Source: an uncultured Chloroflexales bacterium (GTDB lineage Bacteria; Chloroflexota; Chloroflexia; Chloroflexales; Chloroflexaceae). From it: 64,000 nt of DNA. The stretch is taken from the NCBI GenBank assembly GCA_937967405.1, contig CALCJV010000022.1:42670-106669 (forward strand), given 5' to 3'. The position numbers and the translations under genes were made by a program. Positions 4,931-58,500 of this stretch are shown here, piece after piece. Numbering within the stretch: position 1 is the stretch's first letter; every line of letters begins with the position of its first letter. A model generated the notes under the pieces. The model saw nothing but the letters and a program-made list of their open reading frames with translations. It ran no database searches and was not told the DNA's origin.

Positions 4931-6193
4931 TTACTGGCTTCGTCCGGTAATTCCTTCGAGCAGTTGCGGCATATACCAGATCTGCTCATCGGTGGCAACT
5001 TCACCTTCGGCAAGGAAGACGGTACCGTCTTGAAATTTGAGCGGGCCGGTAAACAGGCTGATGCTGCCATCCGCTAGCCCCGCGATGAACTCATCCAGTT
5101 GGGCACTCGCTTCATCGCTCAAGCCTGCGCCCTTGATAAAGCCGATAGCACTGGTATCCTTGTTGTTGATGTCGGTCCAGTCAGGGTCGAGCCACTGCCA
5201 CGCAGGTTCCCATGTTCCTTGTTTGGCGGCAGTTAGGATTTGCAGATAGGCAGGGCCCCAGTGGAAGTAGGGTACACCCAGACACACGGCTTCGGCTTGG
5301 GCACATGCCCCCTCAAAGTCGTAGGGCAGAGCAAAGACGGGCGTGCCTGCTTGGGTGGCTTTGTTCGCTTCAATCAGGGCTTCCGTCGTGTCAATGCCAG
5401 AGATGATGACATCCGTGCCGGAGTTGATGAAGTCATTGGCGACTTGGGTCGGGTCGAGGGTCACGCCGGGAATGTTGAACCAGAAGCCGATCCACGTCAC
5501 TTCAAAGGAAAGATCGGCGGGATCGTTGCCGCGCAGTTCGGTCCAGCAATGGCGTGCGCCGAGAAAGGCGGAGTTGACGAGGCGGCGGGTTTCGTCGTTA
5601 ATCAGCGGGCCAAGGTAGCTGATACGTCCTGACTTCGTCGTGAGGGCGGCGGCACAGCCAGCAATCATTTTGCCATACTCCATCTTGCCCATAACGTTGC
5701 CGAGATTGGCAGGAGCCAGCCCAGTCAGGACATCATCGCCCGAAGCATGAATGAAGATCACGTCGGGGTGGGCTTTGGCGGCTTCGCGGGTTCCATCCTT
5801 GAAATCATCGGAGTTGGTGATAATCAGCTTTGCGCCCTGAGCCACCAGTTCATCTACCACCTGCACCACCTGTACATTCGGCTTGTCCGCCGGATTGACT
5901 TTGTCAATGTAGATGAACTTGCTGCCGGGGAGCCGCTCTTCGGCATACAGTGCACCCTCGTAGTGGGCTTGGCTCCAGCCGCCGTCGTTGATGGGCCCTA
6001 CCAGCACCATCCCGAACACAAACGGTTCATTGGATGGATCGGCGGCTGGGGTTTCGGTAGCAGCTGAGGCTTCGGTCGGGGCAGGGGCTTCGGTCGGAGT
6101 CGGTGCGGAGCCGCCACACGCACTGAGCAGGATGCTGCCAAGCATGAGCAGCACAATGATCAATTGTGCCCGCAAGAACATAGTCGGTTGCAT
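4931..6193 (-). CDS. BMP-family substrate-binding lipoprotein
   Basis: Exported solute receptor of a BMP/PnrA-type ABC transporter (420 aa). A hydrophobic signal peptide ends in the lipobox LLSAC with the lipidated Cys at residue 26, followed by a flexible Pro/Thr/Glu/Ala linker. The mature part starts with FVFGMVLVGPINDGGWSQ, the typical BMP beta-strand and ligand loop, and contains KLIITNSDDFKDG. First gene of the operon with ATPase and two permeases. A strong promoter lies about 220 bp upstream, leaving a roughly 210-nt leader. Family PF02608 proteins usually bind nucleosides; the exact ligand is not determinable here. Confidence 0.92.
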   Translation of the reverse strand: MQPTMFLRAQLIIVLLMLGSILLSACGGSAPTPTEAPAPTEASAATETPAADPSNEPFVFGMVLVGPINDGGWSQAHYEGALYAEERLPGSKFIYIDKVNPADKPNVQVVQVVDELVAQGAKLIITNSDDFKDGTREAAKAHPDVIFIHASGDDVLTGLAPANLGNVMGKMEYGKMIAGCAAALTTKSGRISYLGPLINDETRRLVNSAFLGARHCWTELRGNDPADLSFEVTWIGFWFNIPGVTLDPTQVANDFINSGTDVIISGIDTTEALIEANKATQAGTPVFALPYDFEGACAQAEAVCLGVPYFHWGPAYLQILTAAKQGTWEPAWQWLDPDWTDINNKDTSAIGFIKGAGLSDEASAQLDEFIAGLADGSISLFTGPLKFQDGTVFLAEGEVATDEQIWYMPQLLEGITGRSQ

Positions 6194-6412
6194 TCGGTTT
6201 CTCCCTCAAATCGGTATAACGAGAATCTATAACCCGGCTGCATCGCTGTGACCCAGATTGCCGCAGGGCCCGACGCAGGCTTCGGGACAACATCAACACC
6301 GCAGGGTGGTTCCTGTGATCAGGCACACGCCGGGCTACATTGCCGTTTGGGGATTGAACTCACGTTTTGAGTTGGGTGTTACGTTTGTCTCAGGCAAGTG
6401 AGGTTAACGAAA

Positions 6413-6441
6413 AGTATAGTAGAGGATGGGGCAACTGTCAA
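6413..6441 (-). promoter_or_regulatory. Sigma70-type promoter of the BMP transporter operon
   Basis: On the minus strand the -35 box is TTGACA (plus-strand TGTCAA at 6436-6441) and the -10 box is TATACT (plus-strand AGTATA at 6413-6418), with exactly 17 bp between. Predicted start is near 6405, giving a leader of about 210 nt before the lipoprotein ATG. Confidence 0.75.
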
Positions 6442-6557
6442 GGTTGCGAGAGCGACACCACCAGCCGCTTTGCTTGGGCGGCTCCTGCCATAGCGCGTAC
6501 CGCACCGGCATGGCCTCGTCATCCGTGCCACGTCCCCCAGCCCAAACATGTATCGCG

Positions 6558-6588
6558 TATAATGAGTGTATCGGCTGCCACAGCCGAT
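6558..6588 (+). promoter_or_regulatory. ruvB -10 box and start-site palindrome
   Basis: A TATAAT at 6558-6563 is followed at 6570-6588 by a perfect 8-bp inverted repeat, ATCGGCTG-CCA-CAGCCGAT, about where transcription would begin. No convincing -35 is seen. The palindrome could be an operator or the first hairpin of the leader. A second possible -10, TATACT, lies at 6622-6627. Confidence 0.4.
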
Positions 6589-6685
6589 CCGTGTTGCGCC
6601 TCACCCAGCGAGGAGCTGTGCTATACTTGTGCTACACCGCTCTGGTGCGGGCCAATCCGAAGCGCACCTCCACTAATCACGAGCA

Positions 6686-7744
6686 ATGCCCATGAACGAT
6701 GAAGAACGCCTGCTTAATCCGCATGTCCAAACCGAAGAAGCCCAAACTGAAAAGAGCCTGCGCCCGCGTATGCTTTCCGAGTTCATCGGGCAAGAGAAAG
6801 TGGTGCAGCAGCTCCGGATTGCCATTGCGGCGGCACGCGGGCGCAACGAGCCACTCGATCATACCCTGTTCTACGGGCCACCCGGCTTGGGCAAAACGTC
6901 GCTGGCGGGCGTGCTAGCCAATGAGATGGGGGTCAATCTCAAGATCACCAGTGGCCCGGCGATTGAGCGAGCGGGCGATCTGGCCGCGATCTTGACTAAT
7001 CTCCAGAAAGATGACCTGCTCTTTATTGATGAAGTCCATCGCCTCAATCGTGCGGTGGAAGAGGTGCTGTATCCGGCGATGGAGGATTTTGCGCTTGACT
7101 TGATTGTCGGCAAAGGCCCCGGCGCACGCAACCTGCGCCTGAAGCTGCCGCGCTTCACCGTCATCGGCGCAACCACCCGTGTTGCCTTGCTGACTTCGCC
7201 ACTGCGAGATCGCTTCGGCGCAATTCATCGCCTCGAATTCTACTCGGCTGAAGCTATGCGCGAGATTATCGAACGCTCTGCCCGCATCCTCAAAGTGGCG
7301 ATTGAGCCAGACGGTGCGTATGAAATCGGGCGACGCGCACGCGGCACACCCCGCATCGGCAACCGCCTGCTGCGCCGTGTGCGCGACTACGCACAGGTGG
7401 TGGCCGATGGAGTGATTACGCTGGAGGTTGCCCGCACGGCCCTGCACACGCTTGAAGTGGATGAACTGGGGCTGGATGAGAATGACCGCCGCCTGCTGCA
7501 TGCGATCATCACCCTCTTTGATGGCGGCCCCGTCGGGCTATCCACGCTGGCGGCGGCAACGGCGGAAGAAGTAGATGCGATTGAGGATGTGTATGAGCCG
7601 TTCCTGATCCAGCTCGGCTTTGTGCAGCGCACCCCGCGTGGGCGGATTGCCACCCAACGCGCCTATGTGCATCTCGGCATCCCCTACAGCGAGAGCCACG
7701 CTACCAAAGCGTTACCACCCGATGAGGATGCCGAACAAGCACGG

Positions 7745-49595: not shown

Positions 49596-51587
49596 ATGTC
49601 ACCGAAGCTCAAATTCCCCCTGAGCGGTGTCCTGCTACTGGTGTTGCTGGTGCCAATTCTAGCAGCCTGCGGCGGCGGTACGGCGAGTGCACCCGTTGTC
49701 GAAACTGTCGTGGTGACGGCCGAACCGGAAGTGGTGGTGGTCACGGCTACGCCCAGCGAAGCTACAGACAGCACCACCACCCCACCCACCGATGAACCGG
49801 TTGGGCAGTGGCGCACCCCCCACCCCATTCTCAGCAAGCTCGAAGTGCGCCAAGCAATTGCCCACTGTACGGATCGGCGGGCCCTGATCGAGTCGGTCTA
49901 CCCCTTCCTTGAAGACGACCAGAAGGATGCCCTGCTGATGAACACCTTCCTGCCGCAGGGTCACTGGGCCCTTGCCCCCGATGACAAGATCACGATCTAC
50001 GAATTTGATCCAGAAAAGGGCAAGGCCTTGCTCGAAGAAGCGGGCTGGAAGCAGGAAGAAGGTAGTAGTGTGCGGACAAACGAAGCCGGTGAGCCACTCA
50101 CCCTGAAATTCACCACTACCAATGCCGCCTTCCGCCAGACGTGGGCGGCCGTGCTCGAACAGCAACTGCTCGAAAACTGTGGCATCCAGATCATCCGCAC
50201 CCACGCGCCCGGCTCGTGGTGGTTTGGCAGCACCACTGGGCTACAACGGCGCGACTTCGAACTCGGCGCGTTCGCGTGGGTGGGGCAAGCCGATCCGGGC
50301 GGTACGACGCTCTACGCCTGCAACCAGATTCCGTTGCCCGACAACAACTGGGAAGGGCAGAACTATATGGGCTGGTGCAACGAAACCGCTAGCCGGGCCG
50401 TGATCGCTGCGAACAACACGCTTGAGCGCGAGAAGCGCATTGAGCAGTACCACATCCTTCAGCGCGAGTTCACTGCGGATATGGTCAGCCTGCCGCTGTT
50501 CAACCGCTTTGAGGCCGCTGCCGCCAGCAACGACCTCGTCAACTTCCGTCCCAATCCGACCACCGACTCGATTCTCGTGAATGTGGATGAGTGGGAGCTA
50601 GCCGATGGCGGCGATACCGTTGTGTTAGGCTTTACGCAGGAACCGGCTTCGCTGTGGCTGGTCGTCGAAGATGCTGCTGTCGCCAATTCCGCATCCGGCT
50701 TGCTTAAGGTGCGGGCAGTCACATCCTTCGATTACGATTACCAACCCGCTGCCCTCAAAGAGCTGCCCACCATCGAGAATGGCGGAACCGTGCTCACGCT
50801 CGTCGAAGTCTCGGCCGGCGATACCGTCTGGTCGGTAGATGGCGAAGCAGTTGAGCTGGCAGAGGGCGTAGAGGTGATCAATGCCGATGGCGAAATTGTC
50901 GCCTACGATGGCTCGCCGATCACGCTCAACCAACTCGCTGTGACATTTGAGTTCCCGCCCATGAAATGGGAGGACGGCGAGCCACTCAAAGCCGCCGATT
51001 ACGAACTGGCCTACAACATTGACTGCAACGAGGAGTCGGGTGCAATCTCGCTCACCGTCTGCAAGTCTATCGCGGATGTGGAGTTCCGCGACAATGGCTA
51101 CACGATCACCTACCTGCCCGGTGCCCAGTGGGCCGAATACTTCGCCTATACGCTAGGAACCTACAGCAACCTGTTCACCGTCGGAGCCTATCCCTCGCAT
51201 CAGGTACTCGCCGATGGGCGCAAGCTCGCCGACGTGCCGGCGAGCGAGTGGTCTACCTTGCCCGAAATAGCCGAGCGACCGCTCAGCTATGGGCCCTATC
51301 GCCTTGTTGAGTGGCAAAAGGGCCAGCGCATGGTCTTTGAAGCCAACCCCAACTACTACAAGGGCGAAGTAGCGATCAAGACGCTGATAATCGAGTTCTT
51401 CGATGATACCAACCAAGCCGTCGCGCAGCTCCTCACCGGCAATGTAGATGTGCTCGGCTCGGAGACGCTCGGCGCAGGGCCTGAACTGGAGACCGTCCTT
51501 GCAGCAGCTGAAGCAGGCCAAATCCAAGCCTTCCCGCTGGCCAGCCCAACGTGGGAGCATATGGATATGAACCTATTCATTCGTTAA
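49596..51587 (+). CDS. Family 5 (peptide-type) substrate-binding lipoprotein, circularly permuted
   Basis: 663-aa receptor of an Opp/Dpp-type ABC transporter. Signal peptide and lipobox ILAAC (Cys25) precede a Val/Thr-rich linker. Residues ~74-336 then show the part that is normally C-terminal in SBP_bac_5: HPILSKLEVRQAIAHCTDRRAL, GKALLEEAGW, YACNQIP, VSLPLFNRFE. Residues ~338-663 are the normally N-terminal lobe: DTVVLGFTQEPASLW, KWEDGEPLKAADYELAYN, SYGPYRLVEWQKG, FEANPNYYKGE, LLTGNVDVLG, ending MDMNLFIR. The lobe order is swapped yet total length is normal. The downstream permeases and ATPases are intact. An assembly error must be excluded. Confidence 0.88.
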   Translation: MSPKLKFPLSGVLLLVLLVPILAACGGGTASAPVVETVVVTAEPEVVVVTATPSEATDSTTTPPTDEPVGQWRTPHPILSKLEVRQAIAHCTDRRALIESVYPFLEDDQKDALLMNTFLPQGHWALAPDDKITIYEFDPEKGKALLEEAGWKQEEGSSVRTNEAGEPLTLKFTTTNAAFRQTWAAVLEQQLLENCGIQIIRTHAPGSWWFGSTTGLQRRDFELGAFAWVGQADPGGTTLYACNQIPLPDNNWEGQNYMGWCNETASRAVIAANNTLEREKRIEQYHILQREFTADMVSLPLFNRFEAAAASNDLVNFRPNPTTDSILVNVDEWELADGGDTVVLGFTQEPASLWLVVEDAAVANSASGLLKVRAVTSFDYDYQPAALKELPTIENGGTVLTLVEVSAGDTVWSVDGEAVELAEGVEVINADGEIVAYDGSPITLNQLAVTFEFPPMKWEDGEPLKAADYELAYNIDCNEESGAISLTVCKSIADVEFRDNGYTITYLPGAQWAEYFAYTLGTYSNLFTVGAYPSHQVLADGRKLADVPASEWSTLPEIAERPLSYGPYRLVEWQKGQRMVFEANPNYYKGEVAIKTLIIEFFDDTNQAVAQLLTGNVDVLGSETLGAGPELETVLAAAEAGQIQAFPLASPTWEHMDMNLFIR

Positions 51588-51671: not shown

Positions 51672-52880
51672 ATGACCAACTTTCTCATTCGTCGCCTGTT
51701 TCAGATGTTCATTGTCGTTGTGCTGGCCTCAATCGTGTCGTATGCCTTGCTCTATATTGCGCCCGGTGGGCCGCTGCTCGGCTTGCAGCAGCAGCAGCAG
51801 GGCGGAGCCAACCGCATCACCGAAGCCGATATCGCTCGGATCAAAGCCCGCTTCGAGCTTGACCTGTATATGCCCGTGCGCTTTACGCGCTGGTTTGTGG
51901 GCTTCCCCAAAGAGCCGATTAAAATCGGCGACCAAGTGTACTTCGCTGATCTGCAAGTTGGCTGCGCCACCACCCAAACGGTGCGTCTACGCTACCCCGA
52001 TGGGCGCGTCGAGTTCGCCGAAATCTGCGCTACGCCCGTCACCCTAGCAGACCTAGCGGGGCGGCGCAGCAGCAACGGCATCCTGTTTGGCGATTTCGGG
52101 CTGTCGCAGGTCATCCTGCGAGATCGTCCGATCAGCACCTTGATCTGGAGCCGCCTGCCCTACACCATCGCCCTCATGGGCATCTCCACCTTGATTACGC
52201 TGATGGTTGCCATCCCACTAGGGGTCTACTCGGCAGTGCGCCAGTATTCGCCCTTTGATACCGCGGCAACAACGGTATCGTTCATTGGCACATCGCTCCC
52301 GACCTTCTTCTTCGGCTTGATGCTCATCCTCGTATTTGCCGTGCTGGCCAAAAATGCAGGGCTACCCTATCTGCCGCCCGGTGGCGCAACCGCCAACCGT
52401 GACTACACGATCCCCTTCTTTGGGCTATTTGAGCTGACCGTCAAAGCGAGATCGTTCCTTGATATGGTGCTCCACTTCATTATGCCCTGCCTCGTGCTTA
52501 CCTTCGTGAGTGTTGCCTCGTGGAGCCGCTTTATCCGTTCGAGTATGCTCGAAGTGCTGCGCCAAGATTACGTCCGCACGGCCCGCGCCAAAGGCCTGCG
52601 GGAGCGACTAGTGATCCTAAAGCACGCCTTCCGCAACGCTCTGATCCCATTCATTACGCTCGTGGCCGGCATTCTGCCCGCCCTCGTCGCTGGTGCCGCC
52701 ATCACCGAAAGCGTATTCAACTGGCCCGGGTTGGGGCGGCTCCTCGTAGATGCCCTCAACCGCAGCGACTACACTGTCGCACTGGCGTTACTGTATGTCA
52801 CGCTCGTTCTCCAGCTCGTGGGCTACCTGATCTCGGATATTCTTTATACCGTTGCGGATCCCCGCATCCGGCTCTCGTAA
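51672..52880 (+). CDS. Peptide ABC transporter permease (DppB/OppB-like)
   Basis: 402-aa inner-membrane subunit. Starts NFLIRRLFQMFIVVVLASIVSYALLYIAPGGP, typical of the B-type permease. A ~110-residue extracytoplasmic insertion follows the first helix (GGANRITEADIARIK ... LSQVILRDRPIS), longer than in E. coli DppB. Then come five membrane helices and the EAA-type loop VRTARAKGLRERLVILKHAFRNALIP. Next gene begins 12 bp later after TAAGGAGG. Heterodimerises with the C-type permease. Confidence 0.93.
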   Translation: MTNFLIRRLFQMFIVVVLASIVSYALLYIAPGGPLLGLQQQQQGGANRITEADIARIKARFELDLYMPVRFTRWFVGFPKEPIKIGDQVYFADLQVGCATTQTVRLRYPDGRVEFAEICATPVTLADLAGRRSSNGILFGDFGLSQVILRDRPISTLIWSRLPYTIALMGISTLITLMVAIPLGVYSAVRQYSPFDTAATTVSFIGTSLPTFFFGLMLILVFAVLAKNAGLPYLPPGGATANRDYTIPFFGLFELTVKARSFLDMVLHFIMPCLVLTFVSVASWSRFIRSSMLEVLRQDYVRTARAKGLRERLVILKHAFRNALIPFITLVAGILPALVAGAAITESVFNWPGLGRLLVDALNRSDYTVALALLYVTLVLQLVGYLISDILYTVADPRIRLS

Positions 52881-52892
52881 GGAGGTAAACGC

Positions 52893-53894
52893 ATGGCCAC
52901 CACTCTTCCCTCCGCAAGCCTGCCGCTGGAAGAGACCACCATCCAAGCCGAGAGCCAATGGGCGACCGTGCTACGCCGCTTTATGCGCCACCGCATGGCG
53001 ATGATTAGCGCGGTGGTGCTGGTGGTAATCTTCATCGCCTCGTTCCTTGCCCCCTTCATCGCTCCCTTCGGGCGCGACTCGATTGACTTGGGCAACCGCT
53101 TCGTGCTGCCCTTTACGCCCAATTCCGCAACAGGCCAGATACACTGGCTCGGCACTGATCATCTGGGGCGCGATTACTTCACCCGTCTGCTCTATGCTGG
53201 GCGCATCTCGCTCACGGTTGCACTTGTATCTACCCTCTTATCCACCATCATCGGCTTAGTGCTAGGTGTGCTAGCGGGCTATTTCGGTGGCTGGGTAGAT
53301 ATGCTGATTACGCGCACGCTCGAATTTGTGGCAACCTTCCCGCTCTTCATCATCCTGCTCATTCTTGTCACCGTGCTGCTCGAAGACGCGAACCTGATCC
53401 CTATTCCGGGCTTCATCCTCAGTACCGTTATGTGGGTCACCGCTGTCACCCGCGAACGTGAGGCACAGGTGATTGTGCTGGTGACGGTTGTGATTGCACT
53501 CCTGTTCTGGACCGGCACAGCTCGGCTGATGCGAGGCATGGTGCTATCGGTGCGGGAGCAGCCCTACATTGAATCCTCCCGTGCACTGGGCGGCTCGCAC
53601 ATGCGCGTGATGACGCGCCACGTCTTTCCGAATGCCTTCCCGCCGATCATCGTCGATTTCACCCTCGGCCTCAATGGCATCCTCGTGCTCGAGTCGTCCT
53701 TGAGCTTTCTGGGCTTCGGTATCCAAGACCCGATCCCAACGTGGGGCAATATGCTCGCCTTTGCCCAAAGCTACATGTTCCAGCACCCATGGATGACCGT
53801 CGTGGCCGGCTTGCCGATCCTGTTTACCTCATTGGCCATCAACTACATGGGCGATGGGCTGCGCGACGCGCTCGACCCGCGCATGAAGCTGTAG
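52893..53894 (+). CDS. Peptide ABC transporter permease (DppC/OppC-like)
   Basis: 333-aa partner permease. An N-terminal cytosolic stretch (TVLRRFMRHRMAMISAVVLVV) is followed by the loop GTDHLGRDYFTRLLYAGRISL, the C-permease hallmark, and the EAA loop ESSRALGGSHMRVMTRHVFPNAFP. About six membrane helices; one 30-residue stretch around VTREREAQVIVLVTVVIALLFW is an insertion relative to short homologues. Ends ...DALDPRMKL as usual. 12 bp before the first ATPase gene. Confidence 0.94.
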   Translation: MATTLPSASLPLEETTIQAESQWATVLRRFMRHRMAMISAVVLVVIFIASFLAPFIAPFGRDSIDLGNRFVLPFTPNSATGQIHWLGTDHLGRDYFTRLLYAGRISLTVALVSTLLSTIIGLVLGVLAGYFGGWVDMLITRTLEFVATFPLFIILLILVTVLLEDANLIPIPGFILSTVMWVTAVTREREAQVIVLVTVVIALLFWTGTARLMRGMVLSVREQPYIESSRALGGSHMRVMTRHVFPNAFPPIIVDFTLGLNGILVLESSLSFLGFGIQDPIPTWGNMLAFAQSYMFQHPWMTVVAGLPILFTSLAINYMGDGLRDALDPRMKL

Positions 53895-53906: not shown

Positions 53907-55019
53907 TTGATCAAACCTACCCCTCCCCCAAGCCTGACCCCCGCGCATCAACCGGAGCCTGCGCCCACCCCGCCCGCCCCGCCACGTGAGGTCTTCTTGC
54001 AGGTGCGTGGCTTAAAGACGCACTTCTTTACCGAACGTGGGGTGGTGCACGCCGTAGATGGGGTTGACCTAGAGCTACGACGCGGCGAAACGCTCGGGAT
54101 TGTCGGTGAGAGTGGCAGCGGCAAAAGTGTCACCTCCCTCTCGATTATGCGCCTGATCGAATCACCCGGCGAGATTGTCGCGGGTGAAATTTTGTTGGAT
54201 GGCGTAGACCTGCTCAAGCTGAATGAGGAGGAGATGCGTAGCATTCGCGGCAATCGGATTGCGATGGTTTTTCAGCAGCCCACCACCTACCTCAATCCGG
54301 TCTTCAAAGCGGGCGATCAGATTGCCGAGTCGCTCAAAATCCACCGCAACCTGAACGATAGCGAAGCCCACGAACAGGCGATCCGCCTGCTTGAGCAAGT
54401 GGGCTTGCCCGATCCGGCCCGCCGCGCCCGCCAATATCCGCACGAACTCTCCGGTGGGCAGTGCCAGCGTGTAATGATTGCCATGGCCTTGGCGTGCAAC
54501 CCAGAGCTACTGATTGCCGACGAGCCAACCACCGCCCTCGATGTGACGATCCAAGCCCAGATTCTCGACTTGATGCGGGCATTGCGAACAGGCATAGATA
54601 CTTCAATCATCTTGATAACCCACGATATGGGCGTGATCGCCGAAATGGCCGACCGCGTCGCGGTGATGTATGCGGGCCAGATCGTCGAGTACGCCGATGT
54701 CTACAGCCTGTTTGAGTCACCCAAACACCCCTATACCCAAGGCTTGCTCGGCTCGATGCCGCAGCTAGGCGAGGTGCGCGAGAAGCTACAGGTGATTCGA
54801 GGTGTCGTGCCCAGCCTGATTAACCCACCCACCGGCTGCCGCTTTGCGGATCGCTGCGACTACCGCTTCGAGCGGTGCGAGCAGCCCCCGCCGCTGATCC
54901 AGCTTAGTGATCAGCGCGAGGTACGCTGCTGGCTCTACGCCGATCAGCACACTCTGCCCGCCACAGCTCCGGACTCCACCGCCGCCAGTGTCGCCCTAGA
55001 AACAGGAGCCAGCGCATGA
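53907..55019 (+). CDS. Peptide ABC transporter ATPase (DppD/OppD-like)
   Basis: 370 aa. TTG start at 53907, well spaced from AAGGA. A Pro-rich 30-residue lead precedes the ABC domain: Walker [17 protein letters not shown]-loop [12 protein letters not shown], signature [11 protein letters not shown], Walker [14 protein letters not shown]-loop [11 protein letters not shown]-like ILITHDMGV. The C-terminal oligopeptide-transporter extension has the Cys cluster [19 protein letters not shown], which binds an Fe-S cluster in some homologues. Overlaps the next ATPase gene by ATGA. Confidence 0.95.
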
Positions 55020-56092
55020 GCGATGTTGAACAGATACCCACGAGGGTGGCCCCTACCCAGCCCGCAGCTGGGCCTATGGCTGCTACGCAGAGCAAACCGC
55101 CAGACCCGATTCTTGATGTCCGCAACCTGAAGAAACACTTCCCCGTCAAGGGTGGGCTGTTGCGGCGTACCGTTGCCCACGTTAAAGCCGTAGATGGGGT
55201 CAGCTTTACCATGCAGCGCGGCGAAACGCTCGGCTTGGTGGGCGAAAGCGGCTGTGGCAAAACCACTGTCGGGCGCACGATTCTGCGCCTCGAAAAAGCG
55301 ACCGCAGGCGAGGTCTGGTTTGAGGGGCGCGATATTCTCAAGCTCTCTATCTGGCATCTTAAGGCTCTGCGACGCGACATGCAGATTATCTTTCAAGACC
55401 CGTACTCTTCGCTCGATCCACGTATCCCCGTTGGTGAGAGCATCGCCGAAGGGCTGCTTATTCACGGCATCGGCACTAAGCAAGAGCGCGAGGAAAAAGT
55501 CCGCGAGGCCCTGCTGCGGGTCGGCTTGCACCCCTCCAGTATGCAACGCTTCCCGCACCAGTTTTCGGGCGGGCAACGCCAGCGCATCGGCATTGCGCGG
55601 GCCCTTGTAATGGAACCGAAGCTGATTATCGCCGATGAGCCAGTCTCCGCTCTGGACGTGAGCGTGCAGTCGCAGGTGCTGAACCTGATGCGCGAATTGC
55701 AGCAGGAGTTCGGGCTAACGTACCTGTTTATCGCCCACAATTTGAGCGTGGTGGAACACATCAGTGATCGCGTGGCGGTGATGTATCTGGGCAAAATTGT
55801 TGAGCTAGCGGATCGCAAGCAGCTGTTCAGTGTCTCGCGCCACCCCTACTCAAAGGCATTGATCTCGGCGATTCCAGTTGCCAACCCCAAAATCCGCCGC
55901 CAGCGCATCATCCTTGAAGGCGATGTGCCTAGCCCGCTCAATCCACCTTCGGGCTGCCGCTTCCACCCACGCTGCTGGATGGCACAGGAGATTTGTCGCA
56001 CCGTCGAGCCGCCGCTTGAAGAGAAGGTGCCGGGGCACTGGGCCGCGTGCCACTTCGCCAACGATGTTGCCGCGAGCCTGCCGCACAAGTAG
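55016..56092 (+). CDS. Peptide ABC transporter ATPase (DppF/OppF-like)
   Basis: 358 aa, second ATPase of the heterodimer. Walker [17 protein letters not shown]-loop [13 protein letters not shown], signature [17 protein letters not shown], Walker [16 protein letters not shown]-loop [14 protein letters not shown]. The C-terminal tail carries [21 protein letters not shown], again a Cys cluster. Start codon overlaps DppD stop. Last transporter gene; alanine racemase follows after 85 bp that include AGGTG/CACCT repeat words. Confidence 0.95.
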
Positions 56093-56096
56093 GAGC

Positions 56097-56162
56097 TAGT
56101 GTCAGGTGCTAGGTTTTAGGGAGCAGGATGAGTCACCGCACATCCGGCACCTGCATCCTAGA
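56097..56162. repeat. AGGTG/CACCT repeat words between dppF-like gene and alr
   Basis: TGTCAGGTGCTAGGTTTTAGG lies on the left and GGCACCTGCATCCTAG on the right, the same polarity as the islands at 27.5-29.1 kb. AGGATG and CATCCT can pair. A minimal member of the dispersed family. Confidence 0.5.
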
Positions 56163-56177
56163 CGGCAAGGAGCAGCC

Positions 56178-57335
56178 ATGCCCAACACCCGCCCGACGTG
56201 GATCGAACTTGACCTTGCCGCCGCCGCACACAACATACGCCGCCTGCGCCAGATCGCCGGGGTTGCCGTGATGGCCGTCGTCAAAGCCAATGCGTATGGG
56301 CACGATGCCCCCCTGCTCGCCCGCACCTTCCTTGAGCATGGCGCAGCACAACTCGCAGTAGCGACGGTGGGCGAGGCGCACAGCCTGCGCGAGGCGGGCA
56401 TCACTGCGCCGATCATGATCCTCGGCTATATACCGGCGTGGCAAGCGGCAGAGGCCGTAGCTCTGCGCCTGACGTGTGCCGTATATGATTGGGAGATCGC
56501 CCGCGCCCTTGCCCGCGCCGCCAGCGATCAGGATTGGCGCGTGCCGGTCCATATCAAGGTGGATACGGGCATGAGCCGCTTGGGGCTGTATCACGCCGAT
56601 CCGGCGATGCTGGCAGCCGATGTGGTCGCGTTTATCCGCGCTCTGCACGCGCTACCCACGCTGCACGTCGAGGGGCTGTTTACCCACTTTGCCACTGCCG
56701 ACGAAGCCGACTTGAGCTATGCTGAAGGGCAGCTGGCCCGCTTCGCACCGGTGCTCGCGGCAGTCACGGCGGCGGGCGTGCGCCCACCCGTGATCCACGC
56801 CGCGAATAGTGCCGCCACCCTGCGCCTGCCCGCCGCTCGCTTCGATCTGGTGCGGCCCGGCATTGCTTGCTACGGCTTGCACCCCTCTGGCGATACGCTG
56901 CTCCCACCCGATTTCCAGCCTGTCCTCACGCTGGCCAGCGAGATCGCCCACGTCAAGCTAGTTGCAGCGGGCACGCCTGCGTCGTATGGCTGTACGTGGG
57001 TTGCAGCACGCCCATCATTGCTGGTGACGCTGCCGCTCGGCTATGCCGATGGGCTGCGCCGCACCCCAGCATGGCGCGAGGTTCTCATCTGCGGGCAGCG
57101 TGCACCGATTGTCGGGCGCGTGTGTATGGATTATGTGCTTGTGGATGCAACCGATGTTGTCAGCCCGCAACCGTTGCGCTGTGGCGATCCGGTGGTGCTG
57201 ATCGGCGGACAATACGATCCCCACACCGGCACACTGAAACGGATCACTGCCGAAGAGGTAGCAGGCTGGCTTGGCACCATCAATTACGAAGTCACCTCAA
57301 TGCTGATGGCTCGCATTCCGCGTGTAGTCAGCTAG
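56178..57335 (+). CDS. alr: Alanine racemase
   Basis: PLP enzyme supplying D-Ala for peptidoglycan. 385 aa from ATG 56178 (AAGGAGCAGCC upstream). The PLP Lys is in AVVKANAYGHD (~40); VKVDTGMSRLG-like HIKVDTGMSRLG, FTHFATADE, VRPGIACYGLHPS, and the catalytic Tyr in LPLGYADGLRR are present, as is GRVCMDYVLVD. Placement after a peptide importer may link peptide salvage to D-amino-acid metabolism (inference). Confidence 0.96.
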   Translation: MPNTRPTWIELDLAAAAHNIRRLRQIAGVAVMAVVKANAYGHDAPLLARTFLEHGAAQLAVATVGEAHSLREAGITAPIMILGYIPAWQAAEAVALRLTCAVYDWEIARALARAASDQDWRVPVHIKVDTGMSRLGLYHADPAMLAADVVAFIRALHALPTLHVEGLFTHFATADEADLSYAEGQLARFAPVLAAVTAAGVRPPVIHAANSAATLRLPAARFDLVRPGIACYGLHPSGDTLLPPDFQPVLTLASEIAHVKLVAAGTPASYGCTWVAARPSLLVTLPLGYADGLRRTPAWREVLICGQRAPIVGRVCMDYVLVDATDVVSPQPLRCGDPVVLIGGQYDPHTGTLKRITAEEVAGWLGTINYEVTSMLMARIPRVVS

Positions 57336-57390: not shown

Positions 57391-58500
57391 ATGCAGACAC
57401 CGACTCATCCTTGGCGCACAGTGCTTATGGTGTTCGTGCTGATTGTGGGCACACTCGCTAGTGCGGGCTGTGCGGGTCTCGCCTCACCACTAGCAGGTTC
57501 TGGGGGCAATGCGCCGCTAGCAGCAGGCAGTGCCGCGAACGCACCGGACGTGCCCGACGTACCGGACGTGAATGATCCGCGCCTCACGATTACCAAAGCT
57601 GATCTGGTCAATCCAACTACGCTCAGCATTGTCGCGCAGGCCCAAGCTATTCCCGATGGCACAGAACTGCGCCTCGATCTGCTCGCCGCCGATCAGCCTA
57701 CGGCATGGCTCGCCGAAGATGCAACCACCGTGCACGTGGCCGATGGGCGCATCAACGTGCGAGCCACACGCCGCGCTGATGCCGCCGCCCTCGATTGCAG
57801 CCAGCCGCTTGCGATACGCTTGAGCGGACAAGTCAACGGTACAACCCTTGAGCCAACCTACGCCCTCACGATCCCCGCGATCTACCAAGCGGAGGTATGC
57901 CTGCCGCCGCAAGCGATCCGCATCGCGGTTGGCAATGGCGGCAATGTGCGCGACGCGCCATCAGGTGCAGCCCCAATCATCGGGCAGATCACCTTGGGGC
58001 AAGAGGTGGCCGTGCTAGGGCGATTGGCAGATGGGGACTGGTATCTGCTCCGCACCAGCGATGGAAGAGAAGGCTGGGCGGCCCACGCCGCACTTAGCCC
58101 GCCCGAAGCACAGGTAGCGGAGCTACCCGTGTTAGCTCCCCGCAACCGCACGGCTACCAGCCGTTCCACACCACCGCCCCCCGCACCGGCTGCGCCAGCC
58201 CCGATCCCCGCCGAGATTGACGGCATACCTACGATTGCGGCCGCTGAGCTACCCCCCGAAGCGCGGGAGACCATGCGCCTGATCGCCCGCGGGGGGCCCT
58301 TTCCCTACAGCAAAGATGGCACAATCTTCCAGAATCGGGAACGCCTGCTCCCCCTCCGGCCCGCAGGCTACTACCGCGAATACACCGTTCCCACACCCGG
58401 CGCATCGAACCGCGGGGCCCGCCGCATCGTTAGTGGCAATTCCGGCGAACTGTACTACACCGCCGATCACTACGCCAGTTTTCGGCGCATTGTCGAGTGA
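57391..58500 (+). CDS. Secreted guanyl-specific RNase lipoprotein (RNase Sa/barnase type) with SH3 domain
   Basis: 369 aa. Signal peptide and lipobox LASAGC (Cys27), then a linker with PDVPDVPDV repeats and a beta-rich domain. A bacterial SH3 domain (~175-245, GGNVRDAPSGAAPIIGQITLG, WYLLRTSDGREGWAA) and a Pro-rich spacer follow. The last ~90 residues are an RNase N1/T1-superfamily domain: IARGGPFPYSKDGTIFQNRE with the catalytic Glu, GYYREYTVPTPGASNRGARRIVSG with the Arg, and YTADHYASFRRI with the His. All three catalytic positions look intact. The next gene is a barstar-type inhibitor. Confidence 0.9.
   Translation: MQTPTHPWRTVLMVFVLIVGTLASAGCAGLASPLAGSGGNAPLAAGSAANAPDVPDVPDVNDPRLTITKADLVNPTTLSIVAQAQAIPDGTELRLDLLAADQPTAWLAEDATTVHVADGRINVRATRRADAAALDCSQPLAIRLSGQVNGTTLEPTYALTIPAIYQAEVCLPPQAIRIAVGNGGNVRDAPSGAAPIIGQITLGQEVAVLGRLADGDWYLLRTSDGREGWAAHAALSPPEAQVAELPVLAPRNRTATSRSTPPPPAPAAPAPIPAEIDGIPTIAAAELPPEARETMRLIARGGPFPYSKDGTIFQNRERLLPLRPAGYYREYTVPTPGASNRGARRIVSGNSGELYYTADHYASFRRIVE

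Follow-up and report, generated by a model that had tools for sequence, protein, structure and literature searches.

A naturally circularly permuted SBP_bac_5 substrate-binding lipoprotein of Chloroflexota and an accompanying insertion in its partner permease

In substrate-binding proteins (SBPs) of cluster C the canonical order places the N-lobe before the C-lobe, and a single gene from an uncultured member of the Chloroflexales raises the question of whether this order can be inverted in nature. The gene lies at 49596-51587 of the window, by which we mean the whole stretch of 64,000 nucleotides that was analysed, and this gene and the transporter genes that follow it are on its plus strand. 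An earlier note, made from the DNA sequence, had read the gene as a natural circular permutation with the C-terminal lobe of SBP_bac_5 first and the N-terminal lobe last, and had suggested searching the two halves separately, comparing a predicted structure with solved family members and looking for orthologues of the same order. The reading frame is unbroken over 663 codons from an ATG at 49596, and the 663 aa product scores 137.5 bits against PF00496, where the cut-off is 32.4, with most of the profile (positions 27-175 and 208-359) covered in two stretches of inverted order. Together with the AlphaFold model, this confirms an SBP_bac_5 protein of cluster C, DppA/OppA type, with its C-lobe half ahead of its N-lobe half; as the order is inverted, we regard the protein as derived from the family by permutation and not as a canonical member.

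The protein opens with a signal peptide (residues 1-24, 49596-49667) recognizable from the lipobox, LLLVPILAA followed by Cys, and the cysteine of its AAC motif, Cys25 (49668-49670), is the predicted lipid anchor. A24 and C25 are conserved in at least 90% of 46 permuted relatives, and a lipobox occupies the corresponding place in most permuted relatives as well as in canonical ones. Behind it comes an acidic, low-complexity linker rich in Val, Thr and Pro (residues 26-73, 49671-49814), with pLDDT below 50 over residues 20-68. The canonical C-terminal part, comprising the C-lobe and the last strand of domain I, now comes first (residues 74-333, 49815-50594; placed by Pfam and VIA), and the canonical N-terminal part, the N-lobe, comes last (residues 339-663, 50610-51584; placed by Pfam, by folding it alone and by VIA). 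Between them lies the joint of the old C-terminus to the old N-terminus, W333-ELADGG-D340 (50592-50615).

The inverted order is found by profile, by PDB sequence and by predicted structure. Searched alone, residues 74-241 match PF00496 profile positions 208-359 (E 4.5e-18), while the second half (50568-51587) matches positions 27-176 (E 9.4e-21). A sequence search of the PDB pairs residues 72-336 with 271-519 of Bacillus subtilis AppA (1xoc) and residues 533-619 with AppA 160-239; for Thermus thermophilus 2d5w, residues 83-318 pair with 326-564 and residues 454-661 with 89-311. AlphaFold folds the whole chain with a mean pLDDT of 86.4 and a pTM of 0.81, leaving the linker disordered, and VIA-align lays model residues 75-337 on AppA 274-520 (Z 25.0, rmsd 3.0, 244 aligned). 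The N-lobe folded alone reaches a pLDDT of 92.5 and lies on AppA 21-324 (Z 21.0, rmsd 2.6, 253 aligned), so that both halves of AppA are accounted for, in the opposite order. Each half is predicted to keep the canonical cluster C fold. The separate profile search and the comparison with a solved relative both bear out, far beyond chance, the order that the earlier note had described.

The junctions had also been placed correctly, with new termini at HPILSKLEV and MDMNLFIR and the old ends fused as VDEWELADGGDTVVLG. The new termini are, however, not strictly adjacent in the canonical chain: in the canonical sisters some ten further residues separate the two blocks (in the sister at locus L085, RTDDLTQP lies between HMDFNFN and SLLADLVIRQ), which places a loop between them. 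Mid-chain, the sisters read WEHMDFNFN-RTDDLTQP-SLLADLVIRQAIAY (L085) and LRLNLNDPNDAELKAPHPFLSDVRVRKAIA (L092), and the canonical chain ends are NIADWEAPPRDN and DTVIIGMSQEPD. The ordered part of the permuted proteins starts with TPHPILSD..VRQAI and usually ends in WEHIDMNLFxK, the cut being in the loop ahead of HPILSD..VRQA, and about six residues bridge the old C-terminus and the old N-terminus in a joint of the form NxxxWEL-xDGG-DTxVxGFTQEP, which is short from W to D in nearly all members inspected. Signal peptide and lipobox are alike on both sides of the change, with VPILAACGG in L085 and in the window protein, so the export signal kept its place when the lobe order changed. No intermediate for the proposed route of duplication and trimming was seen in this analysis.

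When the window protein was compared with 84,980 species genomes, in a scan that depends on short exact peptide matches and could miss distant cases, 47 loci were found, nearly all in Chloroflexota and including cultured strains. The fetched loci yielded 73 distinct permuted and 41 canonical sequences, with permuted loci in Chloroflexaceae, Roseiflexus, Caldilineaceae and Anaerolineae; another permuted copy, with 61% identity, is present in the window's own genome. Among 400 Chloroflexota genomes surveyed, 43 carry the permuted protein, and these carriers belong to the window's own family, to one other family of its order and to several families outside its class, which by the named loci include Caldilineaceae, Caldilineales and Anaerolineae. 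An assembly misjoin or a collapsed tandem array, for which the window's origin in a 159-contig draft genome might speak, is refuted by the recurrence of the order in 73 distinct homologues from independent genomes, among them single-contig genomes (for example G029, G033, G042, G065 and G366) and cultured isolates such as Chloroflexus islandicus, and its probability is negligible. Relatives encoded at the equivalent place of the operon are likewise permuted, so that neither refuting condition named in the earlier note holds, and the orthologues of shared order that the earlier note had thought worth seeking do exist. Outside Chloroflexota, the scan of the 84,980 genomes gave one contig of a 'Gracilibacteria' MAG (L081, 66%), which is probably misbinned, and one low-identity match (27%) to the C-lobe part in Fretibacterium. 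Plasmid candidates were set aside, as the two widest matches, both from Deinococcus, were in two pieces at about 23% identity and did not extend far enough to accommodate a permuted arrangement.

The origin of the permuted form was traced in a concatenated tree of 81 sequences, whose halves had first been put into a common order, and in trees of each half. In the concatenated tree, which like the other SBP trees is a quick tree with no bootstrap and a few long-branched rows, the 43 permuted sequences form one clade (SH-aLRT 100), corresponding to one change, and the canonical L085_6604, from a genome of the window's order, adjoins it. The N-half and C-half trees each recover the permuted clade (99 in both) beside L085_6604, with L092_4440 close; one clade with the same canonical neighbour in whole and half trees argues for one event in which both halves came from one parent. 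The two halves might instead stem from separate SBP genes that were joined into a chimera, and the raw material for such shuffling exists, since canonical SBP genes share operons with the permuted gene at L126, L128, L130 and L132. These operon-end canonical SBPs, however, group elsewhere in the tree, and the finding of the same sister for each half favours permutation of one gene over the joining of two, leaving a chimera highly improbable. Cys477 and Cys489 are common to the permuted proteins, L085 and L092 and otherwise occur in one canonical protein, a pattern that supports the sister relation with these two. A permutation-specific disulfide between Cys91 and Cys195 was considered and rejected: the pair is present in 43 of 43 permuted proteins but both cysteines also occur in 4 of 38 canonical ones. 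With the inverted order seen by profile, PDB and model, 73 distinct permuted homologues, and a single clade with one canonical sister, the reading of a natural circular permutation is supported. On these trees the permutation arose once, probably ahead of the split between the carrier families of Chloroflexia and Anaerolineae, or else ahead of a transfer from one to another.

The permuted gene occupies the operon place of its canonical sister, and directly downstream of it lies a DppB/OppB-type permease gene (51672-52880, 402 aa; PF00528 and PF19300, with a match to DppB 8z1v over residues 136-400). It is followed by a DppC/OppC-type permease (53894 being the end of its gene, which starts at 52893; PF00528 and PF12911) and by ATPases of DppD/OppD type (53907-55019) and DppF/OppF type (55016-56092), both with PF00005 and an oligo_HPY tail (PF08352). 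The order SBP-B-C-D-F recurs in most permuted loci with enough flank. At the four Anaerolineae loci named above, where the permuted-SBP operon carries or adjoins a canonical SBP gene, both proteins may share one translocator. Right behind the transporter operon of the window stands an alanine racemase gene (56106-57335), which follows the operon elsewhere only in close relatives (L038, L076). The product of a gene at 57391-58500 combines a signal peptide with an SH3_3 domain and a barnase-type ribonuclease domain (PF00545).

It could be asked whether the permuted protein is an SBP derivative in decay or without a role in transport. Permuted copies at L089, L090, L097 and L125 stand without adjacent permeases, the N-lobe is lost in L087 and two copies are frameshifted; most copies, however, come first in a complete operon, and 49 columns are invariant across 46 permuted sequences with identities down to 38%, so decay or loss of transport is very unlikely. 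The two frameshift-split copies, at L138 (G276, a single contig, 5303-7343) and L076 (5773-7874), lie upstream of intact B-C-D-F genes; they could be pseudogenes, or the frameshifts could stem from sequencing errors. The L087 protein (G042:C1:452949-453644, minus strand; 415 aa) keeps the permuted C-lobe, which runs straight into WEHIDFNL, and ends in an extra domain like the one that extends the permuted SBP of L090 (822 aa) at its C-terminus; Pfam gave no match for the L090 extension. Other binding proteins occur near orphan copies. A 954-aa fusion of a phosphonate-type binding domain (PF12974) with a canonical SBP_bac_5 domain (L125:6616-9480) has as neighbours a DsbA-like protein and a permuted SBP that is an orphan. 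Near the orphan permuted paralogue of G000:C3 is a protein of 743 aa (L097:3802-6033, minus strand) in which two stretches are Bmp/PnrA-like binding domains and the signal-linker region is similar to the one in the permuted SBP.

Comparison of the operons reveals a further difference that the earlier note had not described, an insertion with two invariant cysteines in the periplasmic region between TM1 and TM2 of the DppB-type permease (residues 78-135, 51903-52076). From the RWxxG helix to the GDFG motif these permeases have 51-63 residues in permuted operons as against 0-17 in canonical relatives, and the insertion is present in 64 of 64 permuted-operon permeases and 0 of 14 canonical-operon ones. 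All 64 insertions contain at least two cysteines, and two are invariant across 35 diverse insertions. When a profile of the insertion was searched in the same 400 Chloroflexota genomes as in the survey of permuted SBPs, it was found in 44, always in a single permease. These are the 43 carriers of the permuted protein and G035, in which the contig ends some 100 bases upstream of the insertion-bearing permease. It was found in 0 of 20 genomes with canonical matches only (E 1e-30). Against Escherichia coli DppB, permease residues 136-400 align with 72-336 and residues 1-39, weakly, with 1-39, and DppB 40-71, with the scoop motif and a short helix, corresponds to residues 40-135; this alignment puts the insertion in the TM1-TM2 periplasmic region, right behind the scoop motif. 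In DppB the two helices of this motif touch the C-lobe and the N-lobe of DppA (PMC12136057).

A permease tree calculated without the insertion columns again gives one clade (99) beside the L085 and L092 loci and repeats the SBP topology, so permutation and insertion fall on one branch and their strict association amounts to a single evolutionary event. From this sample of one, the insertion could quite evenly be unrelated to the permutation, the two sharing ancestry alone. An insertion in the DppC-type permease was rejected as a permutation-specific change, since the canonical sister has it too, and such insertions evidently arise without permutation. Against mere shared ancestry, neither change has been lost without the other in the sampled genomes, and the DppB-type insertion is placed directly behind the motif that contacts both lobes of DppA (PMC12136057). 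We tentatively suggest that the insertion may provide an extra contact for docking, adapted to the permuted SBP; a functional link between the permutation and the change in the partner permease is a possibility of similar, somewhat less than even, standing.

Permuted SBPs are already known from another cluster. TpMglB-2 (Tp0684) is a circularly permuted glucose-binding protein assigned to 'Cluster Bc', with a type I/cluster B fold in which three N-lobe strands now sit at the C-terminus and the lobes have acquired a fourth crossover (PMC4990184). Like the window protein it is a natural, lipidated, permuted SBP that is widespread in its own clade (PMC4990184), but the window protein differs in fold and ligand class, about half of its chain has moved and a crossover has apparently been cut; since its halves match cluster C by sequence and fold, we do not propose filing it under Cluster Bc. 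With E. coli DppABCDF (PMC12136057) it shares the operon layout, and the window permease is homologous to DppB; the E. coli system has a canonical DppA and a DppB with some 60 fewer residues in the periplasmic region between TM1 and TM2, without the two-Cys insertion. HMM and predicted fold assign both halves to the family of DppA, OppA and AppA (PF00496), and the window protein is like them a lipoprotein and the first gene product of a Dpp/Opp-type operon; it differs from them in its inverted order, in having its ends in the loop that leads from the domain I crossover strand to the C-lobe, and in the fusion of the old ends. Among open-licence papers, with subscription journals outside the search, no permuted oligopeptide or family 5/cluster C SBP was found, in agreement with the earlier note, which knew of none in this family. 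Naturally permuted SBPs are thus known in cluster B, in TpMglB-2 and relatives, and the cluster C case is new within the open-licence literature.

We consider it very probable that the window encodes a functional, membrane-tethered SBP of a Dpp/Opp-type importer, whose chain was permuted once before the carrier families diverged or before it was transferred between them. The chain passes from signal peptide, lipobox and linker straight into the C-lobe, continues from the old C-terminus through the six or so residues of the joint into the old N-terminus, and stops at the strand that crosses into the C-lobe in canonical proteins. Ligand would be captured between the lobes, the permuted SBP presumably closing like other cluster C proteins, and the loaded protein would dock on BC and release its ligand for ATP-driven import by the adjacent DppBCDF-like translocator. 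DppA-type proteins have two crossovers between their lobes, the first of which we take to be the site of the cut, so that a single covalent crossover should remain, while the lipid tether would now pull on the C-lobe. The permuted SBP and a matched permease may have co-evolved, the cut crossover and the moved tether altering docking or opening and the insertion compensating for this; the two invariant cysteines of the insertion possibly form a disulfide.

To our knowledge, natural circular permutations seldom come with a close canonical sister, a kept operon position and a candidate change in a partner. The roles of hinge and tether in SBP closure and docking have so far been probed mainly with engineered permutants, and the presence of all three features here makes the contributions of the hinge strands and the lipid tether to closure and docking testable. 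Annotation by profile score alone hides the inverted domain order, the permuted genes scoring as ordinary SBP_bac_5 members. If the co-evolution of binding protein and permease holds true, these operons would represent a variant importer architecture across Chloroflexia and Anaerolineae.
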